From contig NC_014216.1 in NCBI RefSeq assembly GCF_000092205.1, positions 2,547,742-2,611,741 on the forward strand: a DNA stretch of 64,000 nt, given 5' to 3'. Numbering within the stretch: position 1 is the stretch's first letter; every line of letters starts with the position of its first letter. Positions 1 to 10,044 of the stretch are shown here, one piece after another. Below the pieces are notes generated by a model, which made no database searches, had not been told where the DNA came from, and worked only from the letters and a program-made list of their open reading frames with translations. The position numbers were made by a program, and so were the translations under genes. This stretch comes from Desulfurivibrio alkaliphilus AHT 2 (lineage in GTDB: Bacteria; Desulfobacterota; Desulfobulbia; Desulfobulbales; Desulfurivibrionaceae).

Positions 1-443
1 CAAATGACCCTCTCCATACCGCAGCATCTTTGTCTGAAATCAACTTACGTCGAATACGTGCCTCTGTGCCTGGCGGAACGTGGCGTGACTGGCCGGAAGA
101 ATTACGTGCGCCATGTCATCAACGCGTAACTGGTAAAACTTACCCAGGAGTGTACGCCAGAATGACGTGGGAAGAGCCCGCGCCCACGATGACAACACAG
201 TGTTATGGGTATGGGAATGGTAGATTTGGACATCCTGAGCAAGATCGTGCCATTTCGTTACGGGAAGCAGCAATTTTGCAATCATTCCCTGCGGAGTATG
301 AATTTCTACCACCCAATGAACGACATTCGTTCGCTGAGGTTGGTCGATGGATTGGAAACGCTGTTCCAGTCAAATTAGCCGAGGCTATAGGCCATTCTAT
401 CACGCAATCCAGAGTAATCGGTGGTGAAGCCCATGACAGATAA
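1..443 (+). CDS. DNA (cytosine-5) methyltransferase, C-terminal part (cut by window edge)
   Basis: The frame is open from base 3, so this is the last ~146 residues of a longer protein whose catalytic PCQ/ENV motifs lie outside the window. Visible features are the target-recognition/C-terminal region of C5 methyltransferases: a PGGTWRDWP segment, ARMTWEEPAPTMTT (motif VIII/IX-like), REAAILQSFP, and the closing IGNAVP motif (motif X) followed by LAEAIG. The family transfers a methyl group from S-adenosylmethionine to cytosine C5 in double-stranded DNA, usually as the protective half of a restriction-modification system. Its stop overlaps the start of the MORC-type ATPase by 11 nt, so the two are probably translated together. 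Base composition is lower in GC than the chromosome further right, in keeping with acquisition. Confidence 0.88.
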   Translation, partial: NDPLHTAASLSEINLRRIRASVPGGTWRDWPEELRAPCHQRVTGKTYPGVYARMTWEEPAPTMTTQCYGYGNGRFGHPEQDRAISLREAAILQSFPAEYEFLPPNERHSFAEVGRWIGNAVPVKLAEAIGHSITQSRVIGGEAHDR

Positions 444-2097
444 GGCAGGCTTCAATTTTGAAATTTCCTTGAGTGTGTTGAACCATCTTGGCCGCAACCT
501 ATATCGGAATTTTATCACTGTCCTTGGGGAGGCCATCTCCAACGCATGGGATGCCGACGCGAAGAATGTTTGGATAGATATCGATCGTGAAAGCTCCACC
601 TTTTCGATTCGCGATGATGGAATCGGCATGGACGCCGACGATTTTCAGAATAAATTCCTTAAGATTGGCTATTCCAAGAGAAAAGACGGCGGCATGAAGT
701 CCGGGGAGAAAAGACCATTCATCGGAGCAAAGGGAATAGGAAAGTTAGCTTTGCTCTCATGTGCTAGACGTGTTTCGGTGTTTAGCCGTAAGGAAGGTGC
801 CGAATATGTCGGTGGACTCATTGACAACTCCGATTTAGATCACGCAATTCAGAGTGATTTGACACCTGACAAGTATCCGTTGGAAGGCTTGAACTTCGAG
901 TTGATCAACGGCATCGCCGACCAACACCCACATGGGACAGTTGTAGTCTTTGAGGAAACCAAGGAGCAAATCAGAAATTCAGTTGCCCATATAAAGAAGA
1001 TGCTCGCGCTCAGTTTTAGGTTCGCGCTGATCGACGAAGAGTTTTCGATCCATGTTAACGATGAAGAAGTTTCAATTCGAGACCTTAAGGATTTGGTGCA
1101 GAAGACGGAGTTTTTGTGGGACATTAATGATTGTCAGGATGACTTTATTGAGGCGTTAGCAAGCCTGAAGCACAAGAAGATCAATCTGACAACTGCGCTG
1201 GATATTTCTGGCTTTGTCGCATCTGTTGAACTGCCTCGTCACCTGAAAATTACTGGCACAGACGAGCGCGCGACCGTTGATCTCTTCGTGAATGGGCGAT
1301 TACGAGAAAAGAACCTTCTACGCCATATACCTACCCAGAGAATTGTTGAGAGTTATATTTACGGTCAAATTCACTTTGATGCTATGGATGCTGAGGGCAA
1401 GGATCCATTCACCAGCAGCCGTGAGGGAATCGTTGAAGACGATGAAAATTTTCAAGCGCTTCTGGATTACCTAAAAAGAGATGCGCTTCCTCGCATTTTC
1501 GATGATTGGGATAAATATCGATTGAAGCGTGGAGAGGAAGGAGATGTAGAGAACAAACGTAAAACGAAGAAACAGCGGAAGGCTCGCGATCTCTATACTG
1601 CCACTCAAGAAGAGTACAGACCAGAGGCCGGCGCGCCCGCTGGCGATAAAGTGGATGCTTGGTTAGACGATCTGAGGGACGACGCCGAATTTAACGTATC
1701 TGCTTACGTGGACTGCTTTCTTTCAGAGAATCTGGTTAGAAAATACCTTGATGACAAACAGGTCACGTTGAAAGAGGGTATCATAGCTGAAGCTGCGGCA
1801 TGGCGGGAACGTGAGGATAAGCGGAAGGGAGAAGCGAATATCAGTTTCAAGATTCGCAATTCTAACAGTGACTTAAGTTACCTAGGTATGGACGATCTAG
1901 CATTCAGTGTTGAAGGCAAGAAGGATGCAGGTAAAAGCCAATCACTTTGGTCCGACGCGATCTCGTATAGGCCTGTAAGAAATGTGGTAGGGCATACTGG
2001 CCTTCTTACGGACAACGGAAAAGTTCACCTTACATTGACATACGAAAACATCAAGGCCCGAGTTCGTAAGCTCGTTTCGGGCAACGATGAGAGTTAG
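433..2097 (+). CDS. MORC/MutL-type GHKL ATPase of a restriction-modification system
   Basis: This 554-residue protein has an N-terminal GHKL (gyrase/Hsp90/histidine kinase/MutL) ATPase fold. The N box is at residues 33-40 (EAISNAWD), the Mg/ATP-binding DDGIGM at 61-66, and the glycine-rich GAKGIGKLA lid at 98-106. No histidine-kinase or gyrase modules follow; the C-terminal half is charged and unassigned. Iyer, Abhiman and Aravind described prokaryotic MORC/MutL-like ATPases of this layout beside C5 methyltransferases in restriction systems, which matches the overlap with the methyltransferase here. The probable role is an ATP-driven clamp or loader for DNA cleavage. ATG 433 is chosen over GTG 421, which would lengthen the overlap. 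An attC site follows the stop, suggesting an integron cassette ending. Confidence 0.8.
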   Translation: MTDKAGFNFEISLSVLNHLGRNLYRNFITVLGEAISNAWDADAKNVWIDIDRESSTFSIRDDGIGMDADDFQNKFLKIGYSKRKDGGMKSGEKRPFIGAKGIGKLALLSCARRVSVFSRKEGAEYVGGLIDNSDLDHAIQSDLTPDKYPLEGLNFELINGIADQHPHGTVVVFEETKEQIRNSVAHIKKMLALSFRFALIDEEFSIHVNDEEVSIRDLKDLVQKTEFLWDINDCQDDFIEALASLKHKKINLTTALDISGFVASVELPRHLKITGTDERATVDLFVNGRLREKNLLRHIPTQRIVESYIYGQIHFDAMDAEGKDPFTSSREGIVEDDENFQALLDYLKRDALPRIFDDWDKYRLKRGEEGDVENKRKTKKQRKARDLYTATQEEYRPEAGAPAGDKVDAWLDDLRDDAEFNVSAYVDCFLSENLVRKYLDDKQVTLKEGIIAEAAAWREREDKRKGEANISFKIRNSNSDLSYLGMDDLAFSVEGKKDAGKSQSLWSDAISYRPVRNVVGHTGLLTDNGKVHLTLTYENIKARVRKLVSGNDES

Positions 2098-2130
2098 TTG
2101 GATGTTTCCCAGCGCTTATGTGCAGGCGGA

Positions 2131-2228
2131 TCCCAACAAATCGTTGCGGCGGGCGTTTGACCCGCCGCCGATTCTTGTTGCCGCAAAAACGGCATCGCCT
2201 CAAACGTCGCTGAACTCAGGCGTTCGGC
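2131..2228 (+). other. attC: Integron attC recombination site 1
   Basis: A 98-bp site with attC layout: R'' box TCCCAAC (2131-2137), a short spacer, an L''-like CGTTGCGG, then inner arms CGTTTGA ... TCAAACG that pair, then L'-like GCTGAAC and R' box GTTCGGC (2222-2228). It resembles the classic form (R''AACAAnTCGTT ... GCTnAACTCAnGCGTT R'). The predicted crossover is between G2222 and T2223. A nested hairpin GGCGGG/CCCGCC sits in the middle. The R' box complements the R'' box of the next site (GCCGAAC at 2868), as expected if 2223-2933 is one cassette. Confidence 0.75.
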
Positions 2229-2240
2229 AGAGAGTACGTT

Positions 2241-2840
2241 ATGAATCCACTGGCATTTGTCACTGAAGCAGGTAAAATAGCCGGAATTGGTGGCCTTGCA
2301 CTAGGCGTCTTTCTTCTTCTGTTCCGCAAGATACGGCTTCCTCAGGGATCTAGAAGGCATCTCACCCTCTTTATGTGGCTGGTCTGGAGCATTTGTGCCT
2401 TGGGGATTCTTGCTTTTGTTGTTGGACACTACCTGCAAGACCCGGACACTCCTGATATACCAGAGTATCGGAACAATATTTCAATAACATATCCCGATGA
2501 TGGAAAGTTCGTAGAGTTCTTAGAGAGTAATCTGGGCCGCACCGTAAAAATCGCATCATACATTGAGATGAGTTTATCCAACGAATTGAGCTATGAGATA
2601 GAAAACTCGTTTGGCATTGAATCGTTTCGGGAAGATCCTTCAATAGTGATCCCGATTGATGGTCTCGACTCGGGATTTTATCTTCAGTTTGATTTCATTC
2701 GTCCGCCTCACGCCTCATACGGCGGAACAGGTATCGTTCAGTTTTCTATTGACGGCTATTTCAGCATAACACGGACCTATCACAGCGGGCCGAGCATGAT
2801 CTATCACCTGACTCAAGTGCCTGTTTCTATTGGGGGATAA
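2241..2840 (+). CDS. Cassette-encoded membrane protein of unknown function
   Basis: A 199-residue protein that I do not recognise. Two predicted membrane segments are visible, at about residues 14-28 (AGIGGLALGVFLLLF) and 42-64 (TLFMWLVWSICALGILAFVVGHY split by no charge), separated by a basic loop that suggests cytoplasmic RK-rich residues. The remaining ~135 residues form a soluble, beta-rich domain that should face the periplasm. It is the only gene in the proposed integron cassette 2223-2933, starting 13 nt after the R' box of attC1 and ending 28 nt before attC2. Small membrane proteins without known function are common in cassette arrays. Nothing shows that it works with the neighbouring restriction genes. 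Confidence 0.65.
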   Translation: MNPLAFVTEAGKIAGIGGLALGVFLLLFRKIRLPQGSRRHLTLFMWLVWSICALGILAFVVGHYLQDPDTPDIPEYRNNISITYPDDGKFVEFLESNLGRTVKIASYIEMSLSNELSYEIENSFGIESFREDPSIVIPIDGLDSGFYLQFDFIRPPHASYGGTGIVQFSIDGYFSITRTYHSGPSMIYHLTQVPVSIGG

Positions 2841-2867
2841 ACTATGAGGCAGTTAGATCAATCGGGT

Positions 2868-2939
2868 GCCGAACAAAAGCCTACAGGGGACACGGTTCCT
2901 GCTTCGCGGAAGCCGCGCCCCTGAGGCAGGTCGTTGGGA
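2868..2939 (+). other. attC: Integron attC recombination site 2
   Basis: A 72-bp site: R'' box GCCGAAC (2868-2874), R' box GTTGGGA (2933-2939). Between them is an imperfect palindrome with arms AGGGG/CCCCT, an outer GCC/GGC separated by unpaired bases, and an inner CGGTTCC/GGAA-GCCG stem with loop TGCTTCGC. The R'' box is the exact reverse complement of the R' box of attC1 (GTTCGGC), which is the signature of a cassette's own two ends. The R' box belongs to the next cassette, whose own R'' (TCCCAAC) occurs at 8208. Confidence 0.75.
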
Positions 2940-2947
2940 CTAGAATA

Positions 2948-3130
2948 ATGAGGTACCCTTTTTGCTCCTACTCATGGGAAGTGCTTTCGCCAAGTGTGGC
3001 GATCAAGCGAATGGACAAGTCCGCCTTCCTTCATCATGGCACTGGCATACCAAGGGAGATCTCCTCGTTCTTCGGACTGGAGGCGGAAGCCTTGGCCACG
3101 CCACGACCCGCCACACTAGCCTTCGACGGT
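2948..3130 (+). pseudogene. HNH restriction endonuclease, N-terminal fragment (61 codons) cut by IS21
   Basis: This is the first part of a 259-residue endonuclease frame split by two insertion sequences. ATG 2948 lies 9 nt after the attC2 R' box; a later start at ATG 3011 is also possible. The fragment (…GIPREISSFFGLEAEAL…, ending AFDG) reads directly into KTFYAHFQM at 5787 when the IS21 element and one copy of the 5-bp duplication ACGGT are removed. As it stands the frame runs two codons into the IS and stops, so no functional product is expected. The GIPREI…FFGLE region followed by RLFWKSDF in the next fragment has the look of a substrate-binding domain preceding HNH nucleases; this is inference. 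Confidence 0.75.
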
Positions 3131-3214
3131 TGTTAATGATCACCCTAATGGAGCCACCCATGATCAGCTAATGGAGCCACCCTCAAGTGGCCATTTTGGG
3201 GCTCCGGACGGTTT

Positions 3215-4000
3215 TTAATTTTTGCCTTTTTTAACGTTTTCGGCAACCTCGTTTTTGGGGTATTTGGGCAGCGGCCTGGCCGCTCGAAAACTTTTGCCGT
3301 CCAAGAGCAGGGAGTAAGCGCCGTGGCGGATGCGGTCGATGGTGGCCGAGCCCAGCAGTTTATTGGGGAAGGCGTCGCCCCACTCGTTGAGATCCAGGTT
3401 GCTGGTGATGATGGTGGAACGGCGCTCGTAACGTTCTCCAATCAGATCATGGATATCCTCATCCTGGGGGGTACGCAGGGGTTTGAGGCCAAAGTCGTCA
3501 ATGATCAGCAGGTCGACCTTGGCCAGGGCGTTAAGCCGCCGTTCATAGGCGTTGGTGGCGCGGGCGGCGTGGAGTTGGCCCAGCATCTTGGTCTGGGTGG
3601 TGAAGAGCACATCGTAGCCCATTCTGACCGCGCAGTGGCCGATGGCCTGGGCGATATGGCTCTTGCCGGTGCCGCAGGGGCCGACCACCAGCAGGTTGGC
3701 GCCCTCTTCCAGGAAACGGCAGGTGGCCAAGTCCATGATCAGGGCGCGGTTGATGTTGGGGTTGAAGGAGAAGTCGAACTCCTCCAGGGTTTTGTGGTTA
3801 CGGAAGTTGGCCCGGCGGACACGCATGGCGAACTTGCGCTGGGAACGGCGGGCGACTTCGTCCTGTACCAGCATGGCCAGGAAGTCGGTGTAGGCCAGCT
3901 TTTCCTCGATGGCCTGGCGGTTTCTGGCTTCCAGGGAATCAAGGATGCCGGAGAGTCGCAACTGTTTGAGCATGGGGATCAGTTCGGGCATGGGGTTCAT
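3215..4000 (-). CDS. istB: IS21 family transposition helper ATPase IstB
   Basis: A 261-residue DnaA/DnaC-like AAA+ ATPase, the usual IstB length. The N-terminal helical region (LKQLRLSGILDSLEARN) is typical of IstB. Walker A is GPCGTGKS at 107-114, Walker B is LLIIDDFG, and sensor-1-like ITSNLDL and a late RIRHGAYSL arginine-finger region follow. IstB forms ATP-dependent filaments on DNA that regulate IstA and select the target. It lies 15 nt downstream of istA in the same operon. The frame is intact. Confidence 0.93.
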   Translation of the reverse strand: MNPMPELIPMLKQLRLSGILDSLEARNRQAIEEKLAYTDFLAMLVQDEVARRSQRKFAMRVRRANFRNHKTLEEFDFSFNPNINRALIMDLATCRFLEEGANLLVVGPCGTGKSHIAQAIGHCAVRMGYDVLFTTQTKMLGQLHAARATNAYERRLNALAKVDLLIIDDFGLKPLRTPQDEDIHDLIGERYERRSTIITSNLDLNEWGDAFPNKLLGSATIDRIRHGAYSLLLDGKSFRAARPLPKYPKNEVAENVKKGKN

Positions 4001-4015
4001 TAAGCTTCCTCCTTA

Positions 4016-5545
4016 TCAGTGAAAAAGTTGTTGGCGCTGGAAGCGGCCCTGGCCGCGGTAGGCCACGCCGGCCGCCACCGGTTCCGTTTCCGGGGGCTGT
4101 TGGTCAAGCCCCTTGCCGAGGATGGTTTTGACCGTGATGTATTGGGGGCTGTCGTAGATCAGCGCCCGGTGACAGGCGGCTTCCAGCCGCTCCGGGCCGT
4201 ATTTGCCGGCCAACCGGAGCACCCCCTGGGCCGCCCGGAGATGATCAACCACCCGGTGGCTCAACAGCCGCTTGACCAGGTGGTGGCAGCGGGGACCGAT
4301 CTCACCGGCCTGTTTGAGGCACCACTGGGGATCGCGCATCAGGTAGGCGACGGCGTCCGGTGGTAGGTGGTCGACACAGGTGGCCTTCTGGCCGGGTCGG
4401 GCACAGCGGGGATGGACCGCCACCTGTTGATGCTGGTGGTAGATCTTGACGGTGGTTTCCGTCGCCTTGACCCACAGCTTTTTGTGCACCAGCTTGAAGG
4501 GGGCGGAGTAGTAGGCTTTGTCGAACTGGAGATGGCAGTTGCCGTGCAGCTTGTGCTCGGCCCAAACCGCCAACTCCGGGGCCACGGCGGGCAAAGGTTT
4601 AAGAAAAGCCTTCTCCGCCTCGGCGAACATGACCAGCGGCTTTTGCTTGGTGGTGCCGTGGCTACGGTTGCCGGCCGTTGCCAGCACCCACTCCTTAAGC
4701 TGACGATTGGCGTCGACCAAGCTACGGAACTCGCGCAAGGGCAGGAAGTTGTTTTTGACGTATTTGACGCCGGATTCCACCCGCCCCTTCATCTGGGGTT
4801 GGCGCGGCGGGCAGGGCGAGATCAGAAAGCCGTAACCTTCGGCAAACTCGGCGTAGGAACGGTTCACCGCCGGATCGTGCCAGCAGGCCTTGATGATCCC
4901 GGCCTTGAGGTTGTCGATCATCACCTTGGCCGGCACCCCGCCGAAGAACTCGAAGGCCCGGCGGTGACAACCCAGCCAGGTCGCCACCTTCTGGTCGCGG
5001 ACGATCTCGGCGTACTGGTGCCGGCTGAAGGCCAGGGTCATGACGAACACCCAGGTGGAAAACGGCTTGCCGGTCTGGGAATCAAGCAGCTTGGGGCCGG
5101 AACCGAAGTCCACCTGGGCCGCTTCGCCGGGAGCAAAGTCCAGCATTACCGTGGCTTGAGGGTTGTCCTCTTTGAGGGTCTTAAGAAAACGTCTGACCGA
5201 GGAGTAGCTGCCGGTAAAGCCATGCTCACGCACCAGGGCCTGGTACATGGTGGTGCCGTTGATCCCGGCCGCCTGCCAGGTCTTGAGCTGCTCCTGGTAC
5301 GGCAGCAGCATCGGCACCGCCGATTCGCCCGGGGCCGGCAGCGCGAGCACCTTGGCCAGCTCGGCATCATCCGGCAACTCTTGGGCGGGATCGAGCCAGC
5401 CCTGCTGCTGAGCCAAGGCCCGTAACTGCGCGGCCTTGCGGCGGCCCATCAGCTTAGCCTTGGCGATCTGGCGGTCGGATTGAACCGACCGCATTTGGGT
5501 AAGAACTTGACGGTATTGAAACATCTCGAACCTCCTGTTGGCCAT
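4016..5545 (-). CDS. istA: IS21 family transposase IstA
   Basis: A 509-residue DDE transposase. The N-terminal part holds helix-turn-helix DNA-binding regions (residues ~1-110, including LTQMRSVQSDRQIAKAKLMGRR). The rve/integrase core begins near QVDFGSGP (first catalytic Asp), with a second Asp in KVMIDNLKAG and the Glu in the GRVESGVKYVKNNFLP region. A C-terminal Mu-type beta-barrel segment follows. IstA cuts and joins the element ends bound at the repeated subterminal sites. The frame is full length, so the element may still be active. Confidence 0.93.
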   Translation of the reverse strand: MANRRFEMFQYRQVLTQMRSVQSDRQIAKAKLMGRRKAAQLRALAQQQGWLDPAQELPDDAELAKVLALPAPGESAVPMLLPYQEQLKTWQAAGINGTTMYQALVREHGFTGSYSSVRRFLKTLKEDNPQATVMLDFAPGEAAQVDFGSGPKLLDSQTGKPFSTWVFVMTLAFSRHQYAEIVRDQKVATWLGCHRRAFEFFGGVPAKVMIDNLKAGIIKACWHDPAVNRSYAEFAEGYGFLISPCPPRQPQMKGRVESGVKYVKNNFLPLREFRSLVDANRQLKEWVLATAGNRSHGTTKQKPLVMFAEAEKAFLKPLPAVAPELAVWAEHKLHGNCHLQFDKAYYSAPFKLVHKKLWVKATETTVKIYHQHQQVAVHPRCARPGQKATCVDHLPPDAVAYLMRDPQWCLKQAGEIGPRCHHLVKRLLSHRVVDHLRAAQGVLRLAGKYGPERLEAACHRALIYDSPQYITVKTILGKGLDQQPPETEPVAAGVAYRGQGRFQRQQLFH

Positions 5546-5642
5546 CGGCTATCCCTCCTGAAAATGGGTTTTTCAGGGGGATATAGCCGATCCGCAGAAA
5601 GTCCGGGACCCGTTTATGAACTTAAGGGAAGGGGTGGCGCCA

Positions 5643-5775
5643 TTAGCTGATCCGCAAGTGGCTCCATTAGCTGATCACGCCATGGCTCCATTAGCTGATC
5701 ACGCCATGGCTCCATTAAGCTGATCCTTAACTGGCTCCATTAGCTGATCACGAAGTGGCTCCATAGGGGTGATCA
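5643..5775. repeat. IS21 right-end subterminal tandem repeats
   Basis: Five closely spaced copies of a ~22-26-bp unit with core GGCTCCATTAGCTGATC, with small changes and variable spacers (ACGCCAT, CTTAACT, ACGAAGT). Two copies in the opposite orientation lie at the left end (3151-3182). IS21 elements carry multiple end repeats that serve as IstA binding sites; five at the right and two at the left is a marked asymmetry. Confidence 0.85.
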
Positions 5776-5786
5776 TTAACAACGGT

Positions 5787-6066
5787 AAAACCTTCTATGC
5801 GCATTTCCAAATGGACGCACAGCATTCCCGGTTCAGACTGTTCTGGAAATCGGACTTCGACAGAACAATACGGAACCGGTTTCCGGACTTTCACCTCGCC
5901 TTCTCCCGCGGAGCTCTTCAGTCGGGAGCACCGCCCTTGATGCGTTTCGAGAGGCGCGGCGACAGTGAATACGTCGTCGACCTCATTCTCGCGGACACCA
6001 TTCAGGGCGACATTGATGCCGAGATGCTCGATCATTGTGGCCCTCGAACCGAGGGTAAGGCGAAGG
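5787..6066 (+). pseudogene. HNH restriction endonuclease, middle fragment between two IS elements
   Basis: The frame reads KTFYAHFQMDAQHSRFRLFW, continues through KSDFDRTIRNRFPDFHL and MRFERRGDSEYVVDL, and reaches RTEGKAK, where the second IS interrupts it. It joins in frame to the N-terminal fragment across the IS21 and to the HNH-containing fragment across the second IS. In its present state translation could only start from codons inside the IS21 end and would stop at TAA 6087-6089 inside the second IS. The RLFW…FP…LRFER-like layout suggests the specificity or DNA-binding part preceding the nuclease domain; the exact family is not assigned. Confidence 0.75.
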
Positions 6067-7912
6067 CAGCAGTTCCCAACTTAATATAACTCATTGATTT
6101 CACGTTATACAATTTTCTGTCTTTCGTAAACTTTTTAACCATGGCATGATGCGTCTGGCAAGTAGTGTTTGCCGGATACGGCCATAAGCAATAACAACGA
6201 TAAAACAAAATGATAAATTTACGCCGGAGGCGATTTTCAGCTTGACAAATCCTTGAGAGGGTGGATGCGATTTTTGTAGGAAAATCAACAACCTACAAGG
6301 AGATCGCCATGAATGTCCACCAACTCATTCGCCAAAAGCAACTCGCCAGCCGTCGTCAAGATAAAATCAGCCAGCGCAAGCACTTGAACTTCGACGCCCT
6401 CATCACCACTATTCGGGAGGATTTCGGCAAGATCGCCGACCACCGGGCCGCCAACGCCAGTATCTCCCTGGTGGACGCGCTGACCAGCGGCTTTGCCATG
6501 TTCTCCCTCAAGCATCCCTCCCTGCTGGCCTTCGAGGATGAGTGGCGGGAAGACCCCACCTGCCTGCACGGAGTGTACAAAGTAAACGATATCCCCAGCG
6601 ACAGCCAGATGCGAACCATCTGCGATGAGGTGGACCCCCGGCATCTGCGGCGGCCGTTCCGCAGCATCTTCCGCCAGCTTCAACGAGGCAAGGTGCTGGA
6701 AAAGATGACTTGGCTAGACGGCCACTATCTGCTGGCCCTGGACGGCACCGGCATCTACTCCTCGGAGAAGGTCGGCTCGCCATACTGCCTGAAGAAGCGC
6801 AAGCGCAACGGGCAGGTGGAATACTACCAGCAGATGCTGGGGGCGGCCATTGTTCATCCCGAGCAGCGGGAAGTGATTCCGCTTTGTCCGGAGATGATCG
6901 TCCAGCAGGATGGCAGCAAGAAGCAGGACTGCGAGCGCAAGGCCGCCCGGCGATTTTTGACCGAGTTCCGGCGGGAGCATCCCCACCTTAAGTGCGTGGT
7001 GATCGAAGATGGTCTCAGCTCCAACGCACCCCATATCGAGGATCTGCGTCAGGATGGTCACCACTTCATCCTGGGGGCCAAGCCGGGAGATCATGGTCAT
7101 CTCTTCGAACAGATGGATGAGGCACTCAGGGCTGGCCAGGCGGTGGAGTTATCCCGGGCCGACGAGCAGCAGCCGGATATTCTCCACACCTACCGTTTCG
7201 TTAACGATCTGGCGCTCAACAAGTCTAATCCGGAGGTTCGGGTAAACCTGCTGGAGTACTGGCAGCTTGACGGCAAGGGCAAGGTCATCCGCTTCAGTTG
7301 GGTCACCGACCTGGAAATCACCGCCGCCAACGTCTACCAGATCATGCGGGCTGGCCGGGCCAGGTGGCGGATTGAAAACGAGACCTTCAACACCCTCAAG
7401 AACCAGGGCTACAACCTGGAGCACAACTACGGCCTGGGGCAAAAGCACCTTTCCGCCGTCTTCGTTCACCTCACGGTACTGGCCTTTCTGGTGGACCAGG
7501 TTCAGCAGCTCTGTTGTCCGCTGTTCAGGGAGGCGCTGGTTTTCCGTAAACGTAAACGGCGACTCTGGTCGGGGATCAGAAACCGTTTTGAACTGCTGGA
7601 TTGCCCGTCCATGGAGGCGATCCTGCTCCACATCGTCGGCCGGGGCAAACCCCTGCCGCAGTTGGAATGACCGGCACCGGCCACCCGGCCGGGGGAATAT
7701 TTTGTCAAAGATCAGAACGTCTGTCGGACACTGCCGACGGCTGCAGCGGAGTGCTGTTGCCAAAAAACGGCCAAATCGACTATATTTCGGCCAGCTCGGC
7801 CAATAACAGTGGCGATTGGGTGCTATCAGCCCTGAATAACCACCGAAAAAATGTGAAACCGGCTGCCAGTGGCATCAAGTTGTTGGGCAGGCGGCCAAAT
7901 CGGGAACGACTG
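6067..7912. mobile_element. Insertion sequence with DDE transposase (ISNCY/IS4-like), 1846 bp
   Basis: The ends were defined by the interrupted gene: a perfect 9-bp direct repeat AGGCGAAGG at 6058-6066 and 7913-7921. The terminal inverted repeats are CAGCAGTTCCCAACTT on the left and CAGTCGTTCCCGATTT on the right (minus strand), 12 of 16 identical. The element has ~240 nt of non-coding DNA on each side of one transposase gene. The left flank is AT-rich, unlike the transposase gene, which looks like a GC-rich host. Excision with one target copy restores the endonuclease frame exactly. Confidence 0.9.
6309..7670 (+). CDS. DDE transposase, ISNCY/IS4-like
   Basis: A 453-residue transposase. ATG 6309 follows a strong AAGGAGATC ribosome-binding site, so the earlier in-frame ATG at 6261 is rejected. 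Catalytic features are LALDGTGIYSS (first Asp), a CVVIEDGLSSNAP segment (second Asp) and WRIENETFNTLKNQGYNLEHN with a YREK-like Glu. NGQVEYYQQMLGAAIVHP and KQDCERKAA match the large group of transposases usually labelled ISNCY or IS4-like. The family name is uncertain, but the role as transposase is firm. The gene is intact. Confidence 0.88.
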   Translation: MNVHQLIRQKQLASRRQDKISQRKHLNFDALITTIREDFGKIADHRAANASISLVDALTSGFAMFSLKHPSLLAFEDEWREDPTCLHGVYKVNDIPSDSQMRTICDEVDPRHLRRPFRSIFRQLQRGKVLEKMTWLDGHYLLALDGTGIYSSEKVGSPYCLKKRKRNGQVEYYQQMLGAAIVHPEQREVIPLCPEMIVQQDGSKKQDCERKAARRFLTEFRREHPHLKCVVIEDGLSSNAPHIEDLRQDGHHFILGAKPGDHGHLFEQMDEALRAGQAVELSRADEQQPDILHTYRFVNDLALNKSNPEVRVNLLEYWQLDGKGKVIRFSWVTDLEITAANVYQIMRAGRARWRIENETFNTLKNQGYNLEHNYGLGQKHLSAVFVHLTVLAFLVDQVQQLCCPLFREALVFRKRKRRLWSGIRNRFELLDCPSMEAILLHIVGRGKPLPQLE

Positions 7913-7921
7913 AGGCGAAGG

Positions 7922-8238
7922 GTTTCTATGGAACGAAGTACGAAAGAGATCCCGTCAATAGAAGAATGGCCATCGCGTACCACGGCCTTAGATGTGTCGG
8001 ATGCGGATTCCATTTTGGGGAAACATATGGTGTTCGCGGAGAGGGCTTCATCGAGGTGCATCACAACAAGCCGCTGGCCGCCGATGGCCAGGCACAGGTT
8101 GTTGATCCCAAGACAGACCTGACGCCGCTGTGTGCGAACTGTCACAGGATGATACACCGATCGAGACATGATGTGTTGTCCATCGAGGAACTGCGAGAAC
8201 TGGTCCGTCCCAACAAGGCCTTGAAGGCGACGTCGTGA
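7922..8238 (+). pseudogene. HNH restriction endonuclease, C-terminal fragment with the HNH domain
   Basis: This fragment carries the nuclease domain. A CVGCGF zinc-binding pair is followed by YGVRGEGFIEVHHNKPL (HNH His-His) and DLTPLCANCHRMIHR (second Cys pair and last His), then LSIEELRELVRP. The natural frame enters from 6066 through GGT TTC TAT; an internal ATG at 7966 could give a 90-residue HNH-only protein but has no ribosome-binding site. Rebuilt, the enzyme has 61 + 93 + 105 residues, 259 in all including the joint codon. The last residues NKALKATS are encoded by the start of an attC site, a common ending of cassette-encoded proteins. Confidence 0.85.
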
Positions 8239-8265
8239 ACGCCGCGCCTCCAGGCATACGGTGGA
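8208..8265 (+). other. attC: Truncated attC site at the end of the endonuclease cassette
   Basis: TCCCAAC at 8208-8214 is exactly the R'' box predicted from the cassette start GTTGGGA at 2933-2939. It is followed by AAGGCCTTGAAGGCGACG, typical of an attC left arm, and overlaps the last codons of the endonuclease. No matching right arm with a GTTRRRY box is seen before the IS630 remnant at ~8276, so the site appears to have lost its right half. Confidence 0.55.
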
Positions 8266-8275
8266 GGGGGGCGGC

Positions 8276-8476
8276 CAAATGGAGCGACGCTCTATCCATC
8301 GCGGTGTGTTCTCTAGTTTCAAAGAGCTGCGGGGCGAAATCCGCCGCTACATAAAGAACCATAACCAGGAGTTGGCCAAGCCTTTCAAATGGACTAAAAG
8401 CGCCACGGCGATCATTGTCTCCGTGGAGAGAGCCAGGCAACAATTAAACGATATCACTAACCGCACTAGGCACTAG
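8276..8476 (+). pseudogene. IS630-family transposase remnant (C-terminal ~65 residues)
   Basis: The frame ERRSIHRGVFSSFKELRGEI, then RRYIKNHNQELAKPFKWTKS and a short tail, matches the C-terminal end of IS630-type transposases (…RRGVF/S-V-ELR--I--YI--N----KPF-WTK). The catalytic DDE core and the left end of the element are missing. It ends at a TAG 2 nt before the start of the AAA ATPase gene, so the remnant now forms the upstream region of that gene. Confidence 0.7.
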
Positions 8477-8478
8477 TC

Positions 8479-10044
8479 ATGAAATACCGTGAAAGCCACA
8501 AAGACAAGCAACTTCGAAAGCGTTTTTCGAACGATCACGCACATTTGTTGTTGCGGCAGATCGTACTTACGGAGGGCACGCTCCGTGGGCTTGATGCGTT
8601 GAACATCACATTTCAATACCCAATTACCGCAATTGCAGGCAAGAACGGAGCCGGCAAATCTACTATTCTTGCCCTTGCTTGTTGTGCTTACCACAACAAA
8701 AAGAGTGGTTTCAAACTTCCGAAGCGTAAGAACACGTACTACACGTTTTCCGATTTCTTTATCCAACATACTGAGGAGGTTCCCCCAGAGGGGATCGAGA
8801 TTGAGTACTACTTCGCGCATAACAAGTGGAAGAAGAGTCCAACATTGCCAGACGGCGTTGGCGTTGGTATGCAACGTCGTCGGAAGAACAAAGGAGGGAA
8901 GTGGAATGACTATTCAGGGCGCGTTCGGAAAAACGTAGTCTTCTTGGGGATTGAACGAATCGTTCCTCACAGCGAGCGTAGTCAGTCACGTTCATATTCA
9001 AGAGTCTTTAGCGATGGTGCGCCGAAGGGATGGGAAGATAAAGTCAAAGATGCTGTCGGGTTTGTGCTTGGGCGTACCTACAGTAATTTCAGGCGCCTAG
9101 AATATTCAAAATACAGCCTGCCGATCGTTCAAGTTGGCAGCGCGGTCTATTCTGGCTTCAACATGGGGGCCGGTGAAAACGCACTGTTTGAAATCTTTTC
9201 TACCATCTACGCTTGCGGCGCAGGTTCCTTGCTCGTGTTGGATGAAATCGAATTGGGGCTTCACGCAGAAGCTCAACGTCGATTCATTGGGCGCCTCAAG
9301 GATGTTTGCTATGAGACACATACCCAAGTGATTTGCACAACCCATTCCCGCGAGATATTTGACTGTCTGCCCTATGACGCACGTTTTTTTGTTGAGAAGG
9401 TAAACGGCAAGTCGAAAATCACAGACGGCATCTCATCAGACTTTGCTTTTTCTAAGCTTGCTGCAATACCTAGCGCTGAAGTTGAGCTTCTCGTTGAGGA
9501 CGATGTTGCAAAAGCTATCCTCTTAACTGCTTTGCCTGCCGCAATTCGCTCGCGTATCGCAATCAACGTAATCGGATCGGCAACCGCCTTGGCCCGCCAA
9601 CTTGCTGCAATTCATGTTCGAGGAGAAGCACGCCCGACATTGGCAATCTTTGATGGTGACCAACGTAACAAACAAGATGAGAACTCCGAACACGCCAAGA
9701 GCATGTGTGAGAAACCAAAGGGTGATTTTTCCGAGTGGTTCACTTCACACATAGATTACTTGCCGGGAGATGCATGGCCAGAAGCATGGCTTGTTCAACG
9801 TGCAACCGAGTGTATCCCTGCGCTCGCAGCGGCCGTATCGTGTGACGTCGATACACTTGAGGACGTTCTTGAGTATGGCCTTCAAGCTGGGAAGCATAAA
9901 GAGTTCTACGAAATAGCGAAGCAGCTTGGAATCGAACGAGACATGTGTTTGCAATCTGTCGCTATGATTGTCACAGGCGTGTTTAAGCAGGAATTTGAAC
10001 CGCTCATTTCCCACCTCACGAAAGCTCTGGACGATGCTGGCTAA
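8479..10044 (+). CDS. AAA ATPase with OLD-like TOPRIM domain, candidate anti-phage protein
   Basis: A 521-residue protein. An ABC/SMC-like AAA domain comes first: Walker A GKNGAGKS at 54-61, a signature-like GAGENALFEIF, Walker B LLVLDEIELGLH, and an H-loop CTTHSREI. It is followed by a TOPRIM-like nuclease domain with VELLVEDDVAK (acidic Glu) and LAIFDGDQ (DxD). This order is that of OLD-family overcoming-lysogenization nucleases and of GajA-type defence proteins. No UvrD-like GajB helicase or reverse transcriptase lies beside it, so a stand-alone class 1 OLD nuclease is the best reading. GC is lower than in the chromosome. ATG 8479 has only a weak ribosome-binding site; its original promoter may have been lost to the IS630 remnant. 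Confidence 0.8.
   Translation: MKYRESHKDKQLRKRFSNDHAHLLLRQIVLTEGTLRGLDALNITFQYPITAIAGKNGAGKSTILALACCAYHNKKSGFKLPKRKNTYYTFSDFFIQHTEEVPPEGIEIEYYFAHNKWKKSPTLPDGVGVGMQRRRKNKGGKWNDYSGRVRKNVVFLGIERIVPHSERSQSRSYSRVFSDGAPKGWEDKVKDAVGFVLGRTYSNFRRLEYSKYSLPIVQVGSAVYSGFNMGAGENALFEIFSTIYACGAGSLLVLDEIELGLHAEAQRRFIGRLKDVCYETHTQVICTTHSREIFDCLPYDARFFVEKVNGKSKITDGISSDFAFSKLAAIPSAEVELLVEDDVAKAILLTALPAAIRSRIAINVIGSATALARQLAAIHVRGEARPTLAIFDGDQRNKQDENSEHAKSMCEKPKGDFSEWFTSHIDYLPGDAWPEAWLVQRATECIPALAAAVSCDVDTLEDVLEYGLQAGKHKEFYEIAKQLGIERDMCLQSVAMIVTGVFKQEFEPLISHLTKALDDAG

Follow-up and report, generated by a model that had tools for sequence, protein, structure and literature searches.

A remnant integron cassette array lacking its own integrase in Desulfurivibrio alkaliphilus AHT 2

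A region of the Desulfurivibrio alkaliphilus AHT 2 genome is, with a probability of about 0.93, the leftover of an integron gene-cassette array that has no integrase of its own (CALIN). D. alkaliphilus AHT2 is a sulfidogen from a soda lake, and the word "integron" does not occur in the text of its genome paper (PMC5016858). The genome is a single contig of 3,097,763 bases; we analysed a stretch of 64,000 nucleotides (positions 2547742-2611741, hereafter the window), in which the array lies at about 2549872. As read from the sequence, the array would comprise at least a restriction gene (with a methylase gene), attC1, a membrane-protein gene, attC2, an HNH-nuclease gene and a truncated attC3. 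It probably held at least three cassettes, the third of which is now broken in its gene and in its attC. The genes of the array are all in one orientation, and the G+C content is 47-56%, against 62% in the remaining window. The features, in window coordinates, are:

30-443, plus strand: C5 cytosine methylase gene, 3' part, as an open reading frame (Pfam DNA_methylase)
421-2097, plus strand: gene for a HATPase-type putative type II restriction enzyme, BbrUII/HgiDII-related, preceding attC1
2131-2228, plus strand: attC1 (98 nt), with R'' TCCCAAC and R' GTTCGGC (covariance match)
2223-2933, plus strand: gene cassette of 711 bp, bounded by the G|TT cuts in the R' boxes of attC1 and attC2 (complementary R boxes)
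2241-2840, plus strand: open reading frame for a 199-residue membrane protein (hydropathy; without a family match)
2868-2939, plus strand: attC2 (72 nt), with R'' GCCGAAC and R' GTTGGGA (covariance match)
2948-3130, plus strand: HNH-nuclease gene of the third cassette, first piece (frame continuity)
3131-5781, minus strand: IS21-family insertion, istA/istB (Pfam IstB_IS21, rve)
5787-6066, plus strand: HNH-nuclease gene, middle piece (frame continuity)
6067-7912, plus strand: second insertion sequence, with a DDE transposase (target duplication AGGCGAAGG)
7922-8238, plus strand: HNH-nuclease gene, last piece, with the HNH motif (Pfam HNH)
8208-8234, plus strand: attC3 left arm, a truncated attC (left-arm profile match)
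8261-8476, plus strand: 3' remnant of an IS630-family transposase gene (tblastn)

The two complete sites were identified with a covariance model, R1, whose stem and extrahelical layout are specific to attC. It was trained on 28 attC sites taken from arrays next to integron integrases in other Desulfobacterota genomes, AHT 2 contributing none. In a covariation analysis of these 28 training sites, 89.5% of the cells of the R1 stem were paired, a value that none of 500 shuffles reached. When the whole window was searched with filters off, attC2 scored 38.7 bits (E = 1.3e-7) and attC1 29.4 bits (E = 3.6e-5), while every other match stood at 9.7 bits or less, the next-best with E = 5.6. The original prediction had recognized an attC layout at 2131-2228 and 2868-2939 and had named an attC covariance model as the check on it; R1 places both sites at exactly these coordinates. 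A scan for attC anatomy (R boxes and an L stem with two bulges) over both strands of the 64-kb window returned these two sites alone at scores of at least 20.5, though by itself such a scan is weak, dinucleotide shuffles giving about one match per 64 kb at scores of 21 or more and 0.28 at 22 or more. Each site fits the consensus RYYYAAC / GTTRRRY at 12 of 14 positions. Rfam gave no attC-type match in the window.

The R boxes join the two sites in both directions. R' of attC1 (2222-2228, GTTCGGC) is exactly complementary to R'' of attC2 (2868-2874, GCCGAAC), as originally predicted, and R'' of attC1 (2131-2137, TCCCAAC) exactly complements R' of attC2 (2933-2939, GTTGGGA). That prediction had treated the match as one that must occur. 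The rule is usual, and the wording slightly too strong: among the reference arrays successive R'/R'' pairs match at seven of seven positions in 22 of 28 cases, compared with 6% under random pairing. The interval 2223-2933 consists of a gene and one 3' attC, and the R' at its start complements its own R''. Its open reading frame and its complementary R boxes uphold the earlier description of a one-gene cassette for a 199-residue protein. At the first two sites R'' begins 28-34 nt past a stop codon and an ATG follows R' by 15-19 nt; within the cassette the spacings are 19 nt from R' to ATG and 28 nt from stop to R''. In the mechanism that we propose, an integrase, in the same cell or in an ancestor, would have recombined folded bottom strands and so placed 2223-2933, with the bottom strand as the recombining strand and one cut per site, at G|TT of each R'.

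Because R' of attC2 reads GTTGGGA, the next cassette would be expected to end in TCCCAAC, a consequence that the original prediction had overlooked. The HNH-nuclease gene opens with an ATG at 2948, 15 nt past the G of attC2 R', and ends at 8238; its frame is continuous over two insertions once their target duplications are accounted for. The IS21-family insertion has terminal repeats TGTTAATGATCACCC and the target duplication ACGGT, and the second insertion sequence (6067-7912) is present in two more copies in the genome. In PADLOC the last piece of the nuclease gene resembles a type IV methyl-directed nuclease, though weakly. Overlapping its end is the attC3 left arm, TCCCAAC AAGGC CTT[g]AAGGCG[a]CGTC (8208-8234, TCCCAACAAGGCCTTGAAGGCGACGTC), which is the best left-arm profile match in the window at 19.0 bits (attC2, 17.2 bits; best background, 11.3 bits) and whose R'' complements attC2 R' at seven of seven positions. 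The right arm is missing, and where it is expected there is an IS630 remnant (8261-8476; 49-55% identity in the best tblastn records, to genes annotated as IS630 family transposase). A TCCCAAC at 6075-6081 was also considered as the predicted third R'' and was rejected, as the second insertion sequence carries it within its terminal repeat and other genomic copies have it as well. The R boxes of two sites thus pointed the way past two insertion sequences to a third attC, truncated and 5 kb distant. The original prediction gave the coordinates 2131-2939, which do contain both complete sites; the array reaches on to the truncated arm at 8208-8234.

Two other accounts of the sites were weighed against a cassette array. 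Both attC1 and attC2 are GC-rich palindromes between co-directional genes, and attC1 prefers a simple hairpin unlike that of an attC, so they might be taken for chance attC-like hairpins such as intergenic transcription terminators. We give this account very little credence. The gap between the E values of the two sites and that of the next match in the window, the R boxes that match twice over, the third arm at its predicted place and the canonically spaced extrahelical bases of attC2 all speak against it, and for attC2 it is already refuted by the model score. An account with somewhat better prospects, though still improbable, holds that 2223-2933 is the sole inserted cassette, at a lone attC-like site, and that the restriction and nuclease genes were never cassettes. 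It gains from the complementarity of attC1 R'' and attC2 R', which is that of an empty site, and from the occurrence of the methylase-restriction pair on plasmids where no attC was detected. The nuclease gene, however, opens 15 nt past an R' and closes in a strong attC left arm that fits attC2 R', a layout that a third cassette predicts.

The upstream genes were less easily assigned. The methylase gene starts to the left of the window (whole gene, L018:13094-14185) and scores over the NCBIfam cut-off for dcm. The restriction gene scores 294.7 bits against the NCBIfam model for BbrUII/HgiDII, under the curated cut-off of 550 that marks membership in that restriction enzyme family, with residues 11-378 alone aligning. 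A restriction gene with 63% identity likewise follows a methylase gene on a Paracoccus plasmid, as does a split homologue on a Celeribacter plasmid. R1 found no site beside the pair on these alphaproteobacterial plasmids, nor was an attC found beside the Desulfobacterota homologues of the restriction gene. A search to the left of the methylase gene gave no standout match to an attC right arm and no cassette boundary. The methylase and restriction genes likely make up the first cassette together, but since no left boundary was found and the pair occurs on plasmids in which R1 detected no attC, its status as a cassette is in doubt.

The original prediction had left two choices, a CALIN or part of a larger integron extending to the left, and the evidence settles on a CALIN. 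No integron integrase was found in the locus left of the array (L018, 2534000-2550700), where an open reading frame with a weak tyrosine-recombinase match (28 bits) scored at most 32 bits when scanned directly with the integron-integrase model. Nothing within 280 kb of the array exceeded the intI cut-off. An integron integrase gene, intI, is present at 2830311-2831261, 280 kb from the array, and scores 450 bits against a cut-off of 265; at that distance it could serve the array in trans. Its frame (L017:3799-5265) has an unusually long N-terminal extension, the model match beginning at residue 172 of 488. One attC of 27 bits adjoins intI in the expected orientation and abuts a group II intron with a reverse transcriptase, an arrangement that has been described for group IIC-attC introns (PMC7923331). 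The intron (L017:1447-1535, minus strand, and 1540-3300, plus strand; genome 2827446-2829300) abuts the R'' side of the attC, opposite to the cassettes, and the next gene in cassette orientation is of the old-yellow-enzyme type (L017:302-1417). The idea that recombination between copies of an insertion sequence parted intI from the array was rejected: both insertions in the HNH gene have matching target duplications on either side, so neither is a rearrangement joint. The array, the distant intI locus with its intron-broken attC and the other attC-like sites of the genome document how a chromosomal integron of Desulfurivibrio has decayed and dispersed.

Folding predictions differ between the two complete sites. 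Canonical extrahelical bases and an R-L stem had been hoped for at both. The bottom strand of attC2 does fold as an attC, with extrahelical T-N6-T and a predicted L-stem probability of 0.885. At attC1 the extrahelical bases are both C (C-N6-C), with the N6 spacing possible but the conserved first T lacking, and R' carries a C at its fourth place. The left arm of attC1 finds a better partner in the variable part of the site, and the R-L stem is not the minimum-energy fold predicted for the bottom strand; the predicted L-stem probability is about 5e-6, whereas the lowest of the 28 reference sites, at 0.025, is almost four orders higher. These values come from a model of naked DNA at 37 C, and the result for attC1 is a prediction. 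For IntI1 and other integrases, the identity and spacing of the extrahelical bases affect excision (PMC3053210).

Excision of the cassette today is doubtful, given the poor predicted folding of attC1 and its lack of the usual extrahelical T. It might still be argued that the array is active, with intI at 2.83 Mb serving in trans and the cassette excising and moving today; the integrase frame is open and matches the integron-integrase model strongly, and attC2 folds well. We regard this as unlikely. Beyond the predicted non-recombining fold of attC1, the insertion sequences and the lost right arm of attC3 suggest decay, and the attC of intI itself is broken by the group II intron. We therefore take the array to be a decaying remnant in which excision between attC1 and attC2, to judge from the predicted folds, is probably rare or gone.

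By hydropathy the 199-residue protein has two N-terminal membrane helices, followed by a soluble C-terminal domain; past the two helices, the structure predicted from the single sequence was of low quality (mean pLDDT 49.7). It matched no family in Pfam, NCBIfam, PADLOC or PHROGs, and scans of genome contigs, phage records and PDB sequences returned no relatives. Distant homologues are encoded on the Synechocystis plasmid pSYLB (28% identity) and in another Desulfobacterota genome, G295 (30-32% identity), where an attC of 38.7 bits lies 14 nt past the stop. The position of the G295 homologue directly before an attC is independent evidence that this gene moves about in cassette form. On the Synechocystis plasmid a GTTAGGC precedes the start of the gene and a GTTAGCT lies where its coding region ends, which is suggestive only; the attC model found no site there. 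One could imagine that the protein, which has conserved GGTG and HxGP motifs, is the first of a so far undescribed family of proteins, membrane-anchored and perhaps antiphage, carried across phyla in integron cassettes and here lodged between restriction genes as part of a defence cluster borne on cassettes, but we hold the chances of this to be low.

Further attC-like sites were detected in the genome near 1.21, 2.87 and 3.01 Mb. The cluster at L095:7718-10106 (minus strand; genome 2869718-2872106) is likely a CALIN, in which as many as three attC-like sites, of 16.8-30.4 bits, surround the gene for a P-loop protein and one for a protein of 208 residues; a MunI-type restriction gene adjoins it. 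The sites near 3.01 Mb and 1.21 Mb are at L096:8708-9600 (plus strand) and L097:7387-7478 (minus strand), respectively. In the window, the array is adjoined at 8479-10044 by the gene for an AAA ATPase similar to the candidate defence protein HEC-04 (PADLOC match of 156 bits), which extends the cluster of defence-type genes beside the array. Restriction-type genes lie in or beside two attC-linked clusters, the array and that at about 2.87 Mb, in keeping with the idea that chromosomal cassettes store genes for defence.

The array is a genuine but ordinary integron remnant of a kind already known, and current knowledge of integrons is left unchanged by it. IntegronFinder 2 defines a CALIN as at least two attC sites with no integron integrase nearby (PMC9024848). 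The array likewise combines cassette genes with at least two co-oriented attC sites and has no intI nearby; it differs in that the genome has an intI 280 kb off and in that one of its sites is atypical and another, the third, is truncated. A complete integron has intI and attI beside the array, whereas here intI lies at 2830311-2831261 and the array at about 2549872. BLASTN of the attC sites against plasmids gave three matches, all weak, of which the one in Nostoc (NZ_CP151101.1; L082:5955-6024) proved by the model to be an attC of 36.4 bits. Its right arm is nearly identical to that of attC1 (GCTGAACTCAAGCGTT), but its internal part is shorter and the cassette gene that precedes it, for a LysE transporter, is unrelated. 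The sedentary chromosomal integrons of other Desulfobacterota (G281, and G218 of the same genus) share the attC anatomy and the matching R boxes of neighbouring sites, and differ from the array described here in that it does not stand beside intI. In the same-genus genome G218 the intI locus is syntenic, with about 90% nucleotide identity, and keeps its attC array.
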